A stretch of DNA of 48,490 bases from Candidatus Bathyarchaeota archaeon (GTDB taxonomy: Archaea > Thermoproteota > Bathyarchaeia > Bathyarchaeales > Bathycorpusculaceae). Positions 19,955 through 47,505 of the stretch are shown here, piece by piece. A program made the translations under genes and the position numbers. The stretch is from contig JAFGNM010000128.1 in NCBI GenBank assembly GCA_016927015.1, positions 1 through 48,490 of the forward strand, in the 5' to 3' direction. Position 1 is the stretch's first letter. Each line of letters begins with the position of its first letter. The notes under the pieces are model-generated. The model saw only the letters and a program-made list of their open reading frames with translations, was not told where the DNA came from and searched no databases.

Positions 19955-20398
19955 TTAAGTCGTTGATGTTTGTTGCGGATTGGAGGTTTTTTGACCGCGG
20001 TTGCTGAATTTTCCGAGAATTCCAAATGGATAGGGCAGTATCAAAATTTCAACTGCGGCGATTGCGAAGAAAGGCAAGCCTGTAATTGTTTGTAGTAGAA
20101 GGGTGATTGTGGAGAATGTGAGCAGCAGGAATAAGCCGTTGAGCCAGAAGCCTATTTGCCAGCCTTCGCATTTGTACAAACGCTGAAGCATAACGATGTT
20201 TAGCACGCCTATTATTATTGGTTCGATGCCGTATGAGATGAACAGGAAGAAGGCGAAACCCACTGGAGACATGAAAAGCAGCAAGGCATTTTGGAAAACA
20301 TCCAGTAGCAATTGAGCGACAACTAGGGCAATCGTTATTACTAAGCCGTGCATGAACGTTTGTTTAGATAGCTTACGTATTCTGTGCAATCCATTCAC
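19955..20398 (-). CDS. Small polytopic membrane protein
   Basis: This is a 147-residue hydrophobic protein with about four segments (roughly 15-35, 45-75 as one or two, 82-104, 108-126) and a polar Thr/Gln/Ser-rich tail. The N-terminus is basic (HRIRKLSKQ). I do not recognise the family. The gene overlaps the 3' end of the large glycosidase-fusion gene by 26 nt in the same direction, so the two are very probably co-transcribed. It could be an accessory membrane component for that surface protein. Confidence 0.75.
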   Translation of the reverse strand: MNGLHRIRKLSKQTFMHGLVITIALVVAQLLLDVFQNALLLFMSPVGFAFFLFISYGIEPIIIGVLNIVMLQRLYKCEGWQIGFWLNGLFLLLTFSTITLLLQTITGLPFFAIAAVEILILPYPFGILGKFSNRGQKTSNPQQTSTT

Positions 20399-22808
20399 CT
20401 ACTGTTTCTTCTGCGAGCCTTCCGCGTATTCCATAAGTGTTGTCCACACTATTCCAATAGACTATCCAGCAACCTCTGAGCCCCATGCTCTTGAAAAGGT
20501 TGAGACCCCTTATGATGAAGTCGCTTTGGGCTCTGTCGTCACTTGTTGACATGCCAAATTCGGTAATGACCACGTCTTTATTGGTTATTTTGTGCAGCAG
20601 CTGAACAAAGTTCGGAGATAGAACCAAGAAAGAGTCCATAAAGACATCAAACCCTACAAAATCGAGGTTTTCGCTGAATGTGATGGGAAGGTTTGTCCGA
20701 ATGACAAAGCCTGCTTCGAAATTAGTGTAAAGTTGTACTGAAAGCTGATGTTGATCAATTATTGAATACGTCTGTTCAAATTTAGAAATTATTTCATCAT
20801 CTGTAAATAAGGCACCTATATCCCACGATGACGACAACTCGGGTTCATTAAGAACCTGAATGTAAGAAAGAAATTGACCCCATCTACTAAGGTAGTACTC
20901 TATTGCAGCAGAGCCATCATTGTTATGGATTATGAGGGCAACTCTCATGTCAAAATATTGGGTGGCGCTAAAGAATGCATCTGTTAGGCTGTTGGCATAA
21001 TCACTTGGGTCAACTGAGTCACACACCAGATTTACACGGATCACTTTGAAACCTAAATTCTTAATGCACGAAACATCATCGTAGATTTGCCCAATATTGT
21101 CTTGCTCGTAGACATAGGTTACTCCCACCTCGAACGGCGAATTTGAATTAACGGGCAAAGACGAGAAGTAAAAGTATGGAGCGAAAAATTGGACAAGAAT
21201 CATAAGGATACAGGTGCTAATCAGGATTAAATTCAGCACTATTCGGTTATTAGCGATTGAGGCAAGCCGCTGTTTCACGCACTTTATCAAACCTTGTTGC
21301 TTGTAAGACAAAAATCGCTGTTTCTTGAAGTAAACCAGAAGGCAACCGCCGGCAAGAGCCACTATGGCTATGCTGGCTATAATCAAGGCAATCGGAAAAG
21401 GAGGCGCTATGTTGAAGTGAATGGTTTCTGAACTTTCATTTCCCGAGGTGTCAGTAGCGTAGACTGTTACGATATGCTCGCCATCAGCGAGACCTGACAA
21501 GGTGGTGTTCCCAGCGATAGTTACTGTATCTTGTCCGTCTAGGCTGTAACCAAGCCACGAAGTAGCCTCATTCACCACGAAAGTCAATGAAACCTCGCCT
21601 GTCTCGTACTTCTCATTTTTCGGGCTCAAAATAGAAATGACTGGCGGCTGAGCATCGGGTTCTGGTGAAACTTTGGTAAGCCGAATAACATTTCCTAAAA
21701 TCGTATCCAGAACCGCGTATCCGCCATCCGCGGTTCGTATTAAGGAAGGTAAACTGTAATCCACGTCTAGAAGAGCTGGCGGTTCCGTATTTGTCCCGCT
21801 TGCATCAGCATATGTCAAGCGCCACTGTTCACTACCAGAAGTGTCCGTCCTAACTAAAACTGCGCTGCCACCTACGGCTACGGTGTAGCCTTCATCGTTA
21901 TTCTGCACCACTGAACTGAAACTTTTATTAGGTATGTGCCCGTAAGGCAAGCTCCACTGCTCATGCCCGTTAGAATTGATTTTAATCAACCAAGGAACAA
22001 TTCCACCGCTCGCTTGCCATTCTCCCGCTCCTGCAAGCACAAAGCCGCCATCCTTTGTTCGTGCTAGAGAAAAAACAGAATGCAGGTCTGAAGTTTCGCC
22101 GGCAGCATAAGTTTGGCTCCATTGCAAATTGCTGTTTGAATCTATTTTTGCCAGCCAAAAATCGTTTTTCCAGCTACCTGCTAACGCGACACCACGGTCG
22201 TGTGTCTCGACTACATCATTAACAGTGAAACCGCCAGTAAACGTTTTATTCCATAGAATGTTGCCTTCAGTGTCAGTTTTAAGCAGCCAAACAACGTTTT
22301 CATCGTTATTTTCTATCTTGTTACCTACCATAACGTAGCTTTCATCGCTGGTTTGAATGCCGGCGCATAATCCCGTTACTCGTAGATCCCTTGTCCACTG
22401 AACGTTTCCTTCAGCATCCGTCTTAACCAGATAGCCCCCTTCACCAAACAACAAATAGCCCCAATCTGCAGTTTGTACCCCTGAAACAGCACTGTTGACG
22501 CCTCCAAAGACGTCAGCGCCATACTCCTTTTCCCACTGTAACTCACCTGACGAGTCGGTTTTGATAAGTACACTTGTGTACGCCGAGACAGGAGACCCAG
22601 CTATGGCGTATCCTCCATCAGCAGTCTGAATGACAGAATTGCCCCGCCACCCGCGGAAGGTTTTGCTCCACTCAGATGAAGGCGCCTCAGAAGCAACACT
22701 TAATGAAAGAAAAGCAGCAGTCATCGCCAACGCTATAAGCATTACTGCTACAGTAGTTCGTAAACGCCTTCGCCTATAGGAAGAACACTTAAACGCTGAC
22801 ATACGCAT
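20373..22808 (-). CDS. Membrane-anchored beta-propeller/Ig-like/GH-A glycoside hydrolase fusion
   Basis: This is an 811-residue, multidomain surface protein. A basic N-terminus and hydrophobic segment (about 17-40) form a signal peptide or anchor. Residues 47-385 hold about seven repeats of the type IQTADGGYAIAG...LIKTDSSG...QW, a beta-propeller. An Ig-like module (about 390-466) follows, then TM helices at 473-494 and 523-547 around a basic loop. The C-terminal 260 residues look like a clan GH-A TIM barrel: Glu655 in LNEPE would be the acid/base and Glu750 in ITEFG the nucleophile. The topology puts propeller and hydrolase on the same outer side. It probably binds and cleaves extracellular polysaccharide. 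The hydrolase family (GH5/GH39/GH42-like) is not resolved. Confidence 0.85.
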   Translation of the reverse strand: MRMSAFKCSSYRRRRLRTTVAVMLIALAMTAAFLSLSVASEAPSSEWSKTFRGWRGNSVIQTADGGYAIAGSPVSAYTSVLIKTDSSGELQWEKEYGADVFGGVNSAVSGVQTADWGYLLFGEGGYLVKTDAEGNVQWTRDLRVTGLCAGIQTSDESYVMVGNKIENNDENVVWLLKTDTEGNILWNKTFTGGFTVNDVVETHDRGVALAGSWKNDFWLAKIDSNSNLQWSQTYAAGETSDLHSVFSLARTKDGGFVLAGAGEWQASGGIVPWLIKINSNGHEQWSLPYGHIPNKSFSSVVQNNDEGYTVAVGGSAVLVRTDTSGSEQWRLTYADASGTNTEPPALLDVDYSLPSLIRTADGGYAVLDTILGNVIRLTKVSPEPDAQPPVISILSPKNEKYETGEVSLTFVVNEATSWLGYSLDGQDTVTIAGNTTLSGLADGEHIVTVYATDTSGNESSETIHFNIAPPFPIALIIASIAIVALAGGCLLVYFKKQRFLSYKQQGLIKCVKQRLASIANNRIVLNLILISTCILMILVQFFAPYFYFSSLPVNSNSPFEVGVTYVYEQDNIGQIYDDVSCIKNLGFKVIRVNLVCDSVDPSDYANSLTDAFFSATQYFDMRVALIIHNNDGSAAIEYYLSRWGQFLSYIQVLNEPELSSSWDIGALFTDDEIISKFEQTYSIIDQHQLSVQLYTNFEAGFVIRTNLPITFSENLDFVGFDVFMDSFLVLSPNFVQLLHKITNKDVVITEFGMSTSDDRAQSDFIIRGLNLFKSMGLRGCWIVYWNSVDNTYGIRGRLAEETVGEWIAQNT

Positions 22809-25540: not shown

Positions 25541-25616
25541 TTCTCTAGCGCTCGAAAAAGACTACCCCCTCCCTTATTTAAAGGCTGAAATTATAGTAGA
25601 ATTGAAGTTTGACTGC
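25541..25616 (-). repeat. Dispersed intergenic element, copy 4 (B type)
   Basis: Read on the minus strand it runs TTTAAATAAGGGAGGGGG, then TAGTCTTTTTCGAGCGCTAGAGAA. The block GACTACCCCCTCCCTTAT (plus strand, 25560-25577) is identical to 46586-46603. The GCGCTAGAGAA part matches copies 1 and 2, which ties the A and B types together. It lies between convergent genes. Confidence 0.7.
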
Positions 25617-25647
25617 TGTCTGCTGAGCTTCGACTGCTCTCTGCAGA
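25611..25647. repeat. Direct repeat pair with 21-bp period
   Basis: GACTGCTGTCTGCTGA (25611) and GACTGCTCTCTGCAGA (25632) match at 14 of 16 positions and are exactly 21 bp apart. The pair lies in the convergent region after pgk. The role is unknown; a dimeric protein site or part of an untranslated RNA are both possible. Confidence 0.45.
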
Positions 25648-46665: not shown

Positions 46666-47172
46666 CTATGAGGTGCTTGCCAAGGTTGAATGAGGTACTT
46701 GTTCAGTTTGGCTGCTCAGTTTGGTTCGCCTGTGGTGCAGTAATGCTTCAACGGTGAACACTACCATGGCGAATCCAGTTATCAGTATTAGTAACAGGAA
46801 GAAAACTTTGAATTCGTAGGTTTCAACAGAATAGTGCATAGCGAGAACAACGAGTTCAACGATTAGAATGCTCATGAAAATAAGGGAGTAAACCAGCATT
46901 TTCGGCAGCATACGCCTACCAATCCAGATGTACCCTCTCACGCGGGCTTTGTCTTTGGTCACGTATTCACCGTAATTGTTTTTCTGCAGGTAGCCCATGT
47001 CTTCAAGCTTCTGCAAGTGCCTGTAAGCCACGCTCGGGCTGCTGAGGTGCGCGCCTTTCATGACATCTCTGGGACCGACTGGGGTGCCTTTCCTAACAGC
47101 GTACAGGTACACGCTTAGTGTGATGCCTTCGAGTTCCTCGTTACTTGAGTTCGGCACATTTAAGCCTCGCAT
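46666..47172 (-). CDS. Membrane-anchored winged-helix transcriptional regulator
   Basis: This is 168 residues. A wHTH of about 70 residues (GITLSVYLYAVRKGTPVGPRDVMKGAHLSSPSVAYRHLQKLEDMGYL) precedes two TM segments at about 91-112 and 122-143 and a short polar tail. Such one-component membrane regulators are a known archaeal design in which signals at the membrane change DNA binding. Upstream lie two operator-like repeats 21 bp apart and a divergent gene for a tiny secreted peptide. Confidence 0.88.
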   Translation of the reverse strand: MRGLNVPNSSNEELEGITLSVYLYAVRKGTPVGPRDVMKGAHLSSPSVAYRHLQKLEDMGYLQKNNYGEYVTKDKARVRGYIWIGRRMLPKMLVYSLIFMSILIVELVVLAMHYSVETYEFKVFFLLLILITGFAMVVFTVEALLHHRRTKLSSQTEQVPHSTLASTS

Positions 47173-47288: not shown

Positions 47289-47324
47289 TGTTCTTCTGGG
47301 AGAACAGCGTGTTCTCCTGGGAGA
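47289..47324. promoter_or_regulatory. Tandem operator-like repeats, 21-bp period
   Basis: TGTTCTTCTGGGAGA (47289) and TGTTCTCCTGGGAGA (47310) differ at one of 15 bases. Each holds a TCTnC..GGGAGA-type dyad, and the centres are exactly two helical turns apart. A TATA-like AGTTAATAG follows directly. The pair lies between the divergent wHTH and peptide genes. Confidence 0.6.
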
Positions 47325-47376
47325 GTTAATAGTTACTTTCTGATTAAGAGTTTATGTGGCTGTGGGTGATGGCGCT

Positions 47377-47505
47377 ATGGCTAAAAGAATAGCTGTAACA
47401 ATTATCATCTTGGCGCTGTTGTTTTCAGCGGTAGCTGGAACACGGTATGCGTACGCTGCTGGGCTGGGGGTCGAAAGCGCCGTTGGATGGACTAATAGTT
47501 TTTAA
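47377..47505 (+). CDS. Very short secreted or membrane peptide (42 residues)
   Basis: This is not in the ORF track. The start MAKRIAVTIIILALLFSAVAG is a clear signal-peptide or TM pattern, followed by TRYAYAAGLGVESAVGWTNSF and a TAA. GGTGAT lies about 7 nt upstream. It may be a real small peptide or the 5' remnant of a longer secreted protein. Its promoter carries the tandem repeats, which favours a real, regulated gene. Confidence 0.45.
   Translation: MAKRIAVTIIILALLFSAVAGTRYAYAAGLGVESAVGWTNSF

Follow-up and report, generated by a model that had tools for sequence, protein, structure and literature searches.

A recurrent two-unit operator in Bathyarchaeota, probably of a surface-protein regulon with membrane-anchored winged-helix regulators

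Introduction

Does a pair of near-identical repeats, located between the gene for a membrane-bound DNA-binding protein and a very small open reading frame, represent a compact signalling circuit of its own, or is it a single copy of something larger? This question is raised by positions 47289-47505 of the DNA analysed here, a stretch of 48,490 nucleotides (the window), which is contig 38 of an archaeal genome of 1.93 Mb from Candidatus Bathyarchaeota, i.e. from a group of abundant, largely uncultured sediment archaea. The original prediction was that two operators with two-turn spacing, a divergently oriented membrane-anchored winged-helix (wHTH) regulator and a secreted peptide of 42 residues together form a surface-sensing or peptide-signalling circuit. 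Literature searches on the motif and on regulatory sites of Bathyarchaeota returned nothing relevant, and no paper was found on regulatory sites of this kind in Bathyarchaeota.

The reading that we favour, and consider rather likely, is that 47289-47336 is an operator of a surface-protein regulon, which is bound by membrane-anchored wHTH regulators and probably acts in activation. The idea of a compact peptide-signalling circuit has to give way to this picture, in which the window holds just one copy of a regulon-wide operator with large surface proteins as its usual targets. As a finding, the regulon is both stronger and more general than the circuit that was originally proposed.

Anatomy of the repeats

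The two repeats, GTTCTTCTGGGAGAA (47290-47304) and GTTCTCCTGGGAGAG (47311-47325), are identical at 13 of 15 positions and have a start-to-start spacing of exactly 21 bp, and TAATAG (47327-47332) directly abuts the second of them, all of which agrees with the original prediction. Together with the related sites described below, they can be resolved into a composite element on the forward strand. Unit 1, the near-palindrome GTTCTTCTGGGAGAAC (47290..47305), is followed by the spacer AGCGT (47306..47310), which has 5 bp here and 5 or 6 bp elsewhere, by unit 2, GTTCTCCTGGGAGAGT (47311..47326), and by the TATA-like element TTAATAG (47326..47332), which in a sequence logo of 133 sites is conserved and stands at a fixed distance after unit 2. 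As modelled, the whole operator/core-promoter element (47289..47336) has a length of about 48 bp and scores 48.9 bits with a sequence-only covariance model. The consensus over the 133 aligned sites is approximately TGTTCYTYTnGnGGAACAnnnnTGTTCTYnGGGAGAGCTAAAAG, with near-palindromic units of the type GTTCTYYnnRGAGAAC and a TATA-like element that reads CTAAAAG or TTATTAG in the family consensus.

Unit length is 16 bp in 115 of 131 parsed sites, and only three layouts occur among these, i.e. a 16-bp unit with a 5-bp spacer (90 sites), 16 bp with 6 bp (25 sites) and 15 bp with 6 bp (16 sites). Consequently, the period is 21 bp in 106 sites and 22 bp in 25, with no other value, which corresponds to two turns of DNA and places both units on one face of the helix. 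A dimer could have its site on each of the units or, alternatively, on the central palindrome GGAGAACAnnnTGTTCTCC. In the logo, GGGAGAG, which forms the right half of unit 2, is better conserved than the corresponding half of unit 1, and it lies at the expected position of a BRE. The TATA-like TAAAAG or TAATAG lies about 36 bp upstream of the typical start codon, so that, by general archaeal promoter geometry, the leader would have about 10 nt and include a ribosome site. The position of the element upstream of the TATA-like box led us to reject a role at the RNA level.

The sequence AGAACAnnnTGTTCT within the central palindrome (47299-47317) is identical to the consensus of the vertebrate glucocorticoid response element, a likeness that we take as coincidence. 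In the intergenic region after the pgk gene (25608-25643), the 15-mers TTTGACTGCTGTCTG and TTCGACTGCTCTCTG also lie 21 bp apart; their sequence is unlike that of the operator.

Recurrence of the element across genomes

A pattern search with GGAGAACAnnnTGTTCTCC and 3 mismatches gave only two good sites, since the spacing of the units varies, and a matrix derived from three sites and scored at the loci of wHTH orthologs added sites in some genera only. The pattern was replaced by the covariance model, which was built from an alignment of eight sites from several genomes. Within the host genome, the same element is present at three other places. One copy (C92), found in a DNA search of this genome, precedes two tandem genes for secreted coiled-coil proteins; another (C45), reached via a paralog of the regulator, stands before a secreted-protein gene that is followed by a second gene for a wHTH protein with two transmembrane helices (wHTH-2TM); and the third (C39) precedes a Kelch-protein gene, after which comes a third wHTH-2TM gene. 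Thus, a wHTH-2TM gene adjoins three of the four strong operators of the host genome.

At the level of the family, the element was found in 51 of 91 genomes (E<=0.05); a single-contig genome has as many as 29 matches, and the matches listed include 147 family sites. In the order, 44 of 163 genomes carry it at E<=1e-3, i.e. 36 in the family of the window and 8 in a sister family, and in the class, it occurs at E<=1e-4 in 43 of 257 genomes, all of which belong to the families f1 and f4. A model search at this same threshold of E<=1e-4 found the element in none of the 94 class genomes outside the order. As judged from sequence, the putative regulon therefore spans two families of one Bathyarchaeota order.

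Could the repeat have arisen by chance, or could it be an extended core promoter that operates without a regulator? Pairs of 15-mers with at least 13 of 15 matches and spacings of 15-39 bp do arise elsewhere in the window, with four places at 21 bp (the operator included) and one at 27 bp; of the other three 21-bp pairs, two lie inside genes and one is intergenic. Spacing by itself is therefore weak evidence, and it is the recurrence of the element that is strong evidence. With an E value of 1.2e-12, with the 147 family sites listed and no occurrence in the class genomes outside the order, and with near-palindromic units in helical phasing, this explanation seems extremely improbable.

Genes downstream of the operators

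What nearly all operators have in common is the kind of gene that they precede. Altogether, 135 operator loci were read, and 122 of these have a downstream open reading frame of at least 100 aa. A hydrophobic N-terminal signal or anchor segment is present in 111 of the 122 proteins, as compared to 9 of 46 for the genes of the window, and the distance from the first operator base to the start codon is mostly 70-90 bp, with a median of 78. Pfam families, which overlap, were assigned among 75 targets and include NosD (20), Beta_helix (15), Laminin_G_3 (15) and Kelch (2). By these sequence features, the predicted targets are secreted or surface proteins, with several folds that are unrelated to one another. 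As in the original prediction, the repeats are operator-like and the genes behind them encode proteins of this kind. From sequence alone, the element predicts between 1 and 29 candidate co-regulated surface-protein genes per genome, and it offers a handle on how Bathyarchaeota cells present themselves to their surroundings.

The window itself also contains a gene for a large secreted or membrane protein of 811 aa (20373-22808), which resembles some of the operator targets and has no operator match before it. A secreted-protein family designated P0003 (L002 691-1482) is conserved in many genomes between the operator and wHTH genes of the B type. It gave no match in a Pfam search, and its predicted structure is of low confidence (pLDDT 53.5) and suggests at most an N-terminal helix and a beta-rich ectodomain; a function of P0003 proteins as co-sensors is possible. 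The operators of these B-type operons (L002 613-659 and orthologs) constitute a subtype, in which the first unit has 15 bp and the spacer 6 bp (GTTCTTTTGGAGAACAnTTTTGTTC).

A winged helix on a membrane hairpin

The divergent gene next to the operator in the window (46666..47172, reverse strand) encodes a protein of 168 aa with two hydrophobic segments and a winged helix in its AlphaFold2 model, and was thus correctly recognized in the original prediction as a gene for a membrane wHTH protein. The model, with a mean pLDDT of 74, comprises helices at residues 17-28, 34-41 and 46-58 and wing strands at 62-64 and 70-72, which together make up the winged-helix domain (residues 17-72; 46957..47124) with its recognition helix SSPSVAYRHLQKLE. 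Two long helices follow (79-113 and 119-155). With hydrophobic spans at residues 87-117 and 118-147 in the hydropathy plot, these would form a two-helix membrane hairpin (residues 87-147; 46732..46914) with a very short external loop. There are four Lys/Arg residues before the first span and none in the short loop between the spans, for which reason we expect the winged helix to face the cytoplasm.

The DNA-binding domain resembles winged helices of the IclR, LexA, TrmB and MarR types only weakly, in profile as well as in fold. All Pfam matches to IclR, LexA and TrmB HTH domains remain below the curated cut-offs (the best has 17.3 bits, with a cut-off of 22 for HTH_IclR), the effector domains of these families are absent from the protein, and when PDB was searched with the model, no fold reached E<=0.001, and only generic winged helices came up. 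The NCBIfam search gave nothing useful.

Relatives of the regulator occur in Candidatus Bathyarchaeota assemblies. Those encoded beside operators have 150-180 aa and two C-terminal membrane helices. In a phylogenetic tree, the wHTH proteins encoded in the order operator, secreted-protein gene, wHTH gene fall into one clade with a support of 99/99, and the regulator of the window belongs to another clade, named A. The recognition helix is almost invariant across A- and B-type proteins while the remaining sequence varies, which is what would be expected if both types of protein read the same element.

Linkage of operators and regulator genes

Do these wHTH-2TM proteins really belong to the operators? 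Among the matches listed, 36 of the 147 operators have a listed wHTH-2TM gene at a distance of at most 3 kb, with 1.5 expected by chance placement, which upholds the link between repeats and membrane-anchored wHTH genes. The commonest gene order is operator, secreted-protein gene, wHTH gene. The divergent layout of the window is also found in two other genomes (G006 and G071) and a tandem layout in a third (G075), and in these other genera, the place that the small open reading frame has beside the regulator is taken by a 317-residue LamG-like protein (G071) or a beta-helix protein (G006). According to the original prediction, both the repeats and the peptide gene should accompany orthologous wHTH genes. 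This fails at the closest ortholog (in G083, see below), and what does recur in G071, G006 and G075 are the repeats together with a secreted-protein gene.

Co-occurrence points in the same direction. With thresholds of E<=1e-50 for an A-type ortholog and E<=1e-6 for an operator, operators are present in 24 of 27 family genomes with an A-type ortholog versus 5 of 64 without one (Fisher p 5e-14, shared ancestry being ignored). Within the genus g5, the respective numbers are 13 of 13 and 1 of 19 (Fisher p 4e-8, again ignoring shared ancestry). In the sister family, the operators of which were outside the set used for building the model, a wHTH-2TM gene adjoins 11 of the 14 operators among the matches listed, mostly in the order operator, secreted gene, regulator, with fewer than 11 independent cases since several of the genomes are closely related.

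Another explanation would be that an unrelated soluble protein or a special TFB occupies the operator, and that wHTH-2TM genes are merely frequent members of the regulon because they travel with surface-protein modules. Consistent with this, about three quarters of the operator copies have no wHTH gene nearby, and several operator-rich genomes (G058, G060, G063 and G026) have no A-type ortholog above approximately 52% identity; other wHTH-2TM paralogs are present in these genomes. Conversely, two genomes (G008 and G054) have an A-type sequence and no operators. Against a soluble factor, however, stand the recurrence in two families of regulator genes inside the target operons, the additional divergent and tandem layouts, and a recognition helix that is conserved in otherwise variable proteins, and we therefore regard it as unlikely.

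Relation to known systems and a possible mechanism

By its layout, the system most closely resembles ArnR and ArnR1 of Sulfolobus acidocaldarius. These proteins have an N-terminal HTH domain and two C-terminal transmembrane helices and activate a surface structure; in the flaB promoter, their binding needs both of two inverted repeats of 15 bp, which lie between -43 and -84 (PMC6396743; Lassak et al. 2013, cited therein). The protein of the window, by model and hydropathy, shares this domain order, the operator likewise has two inverted repeats of about 15 bp in a stretch of about 41 bp just upstream of BRE/TATA, and both systems have to do with surface structures and include paralogous regulators. 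There are also clear differences. In ArnR, HAMP and sensor domains are inserted between the HTH domain and the membrane helices, whereas in the window protein the first span follows the wing after no more than about 15 residues; the ArnR boxes read TCGAC-N5-GTCGA rather than GTTCT-N6-AGAAC; and ArnR regulates archaella and pili rather than many surface-protein genes with the regulator often in the target operon. By analogy, the window protein may work like ArnR, to which, lacking the HAMP and sensor domains, it is likened in layout and not assigned as a family member.

In a broader sense, the protein shares with the transmembrane transcription regulators (TTRs), which have been reported to be widespread in archaea, the combination of a DNA-binding domain and a transmembrane region in one polypeptide (PMC10269533). 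Its DNA-binding domain is a winged helix in the model with weak HTH profile matches, and it has at least one transmembrane region, as TTRs do. Bathyarchaeota are not mentioned in the main text of that survey, the consulted passages of which give no operators for proteins like the one studied here. EarA of Methanococcus maripaludis, as described in PMC6396743 and PMC13286277, is also a wHTH activator, and it binds to short elements that are repeated ahead of a surface-structure promoter. EarA controls the archaellum operon, whereas the sites described here are scattered over the genome and their putative regulator is membrane-anchored.

Given these parallels, membrane-anchored wHTH dimers might occupy both units from the same side of the DNA, and binding would most likely recruit TFB/TBP and thereby activate transcription. 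Activation is favoured because both units are located immediately upstream of the BRE/TATA position, and by the analogy to ArnR. The same regulon could also be under the control of a wHTH-2TM repressor that covers the BRE, blocks TFB and is released by a signal. The right half of unit 2, located at the expected BRE position and abutting the TATA-like box, would suit such a repressor, as would the regulator genes inside operons, a common arrangement for repressors. Yet neither unit lies over or after the TATA-like box, both being upstream of it, and the closest studied layout, i.e. the ArnR boxes upstream of BRE/TATA which are both needed, serves activation, which makes repression seem somewhat unlikely.

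Staying with activation by membrane-anchored regulators, autoregulation could be expected wherever the wHTH gene sits in the operon, and the signal may be the state of the membrane or envelope as read by the two-helix hairpin, or a co-encoded secreted partner. Tentatively, this could amount to a system not described before, in which a minimal membrane sensor, made of a winged helix and a hairpin of two helices joined by a few residues, would determine the make-up of the secreted and surface proteins via a single two-unit operator, and in which a co-encoded secreted partner would belong to the sensor. It would be a test case for how a membrane-tied transcription factor can control many scattered promoters.

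The 42-residue open reading frame

What, then, is the small open reading frame behind the operator of the window? It extends from an ATG at 47377 to a stop at 47505 on the forward strand (47377..47505), encodes 42 aa with a signal-peptide-like N-terminus and is preceded by GGTGAT (47365..47370), which resembles a ribosome-binding site. It could thus be taken for a genuine small secreted signalling peptide under the control of the divergent membrane wHTH protein, since start codon, ribosome site, operator and N-terminus are all intact in the window. Pfam and NCBIfam contain no match to it, and searches for relatives produced no convincing one, the best match elsewhere being located at the syntenic position in the nearest relative (G083). 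There, the reading frame has a frameshift and a stop, start codon and operator are missing, and the part corresponding to the open reading frame is conserved at 88 of 129 positions, i.e. less than the non-coding sequence that follows (56 of 66). Stops also break the A-type wHTH gene of G083, and a gene for an alpha/beta-hydrolase occupies the operator position (L017 1681-1983, 2838-3137). Moreover, other operators precede proteins of 150-600 aa.

Hence, the secreted peptide of the original prediction survives as an open reading frame with a signal-peptide-like start and not as a conserved peptide gene, of the kind that a peptide-signalling circuit requires and of which no conserved ortholog was found. 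A secreted signalling peptide is, on this evidence, very unlikely, and that the open reading frame is a working gene at all is doubtful. From the frameshift, the loss of start codon and operator and the broken wHTH gene in G083, we read it as a remnant, probably the leftover 5' end of a larger surface-protein gene, so that the target of this operator copy would have shrunk to 42 aa. A second apparent remnant target is found in G083 itself, where another operator (L047 1501-1769) precedes a 63-aa stub of a truncated gene for a beta-helix (NosD-like) protein.
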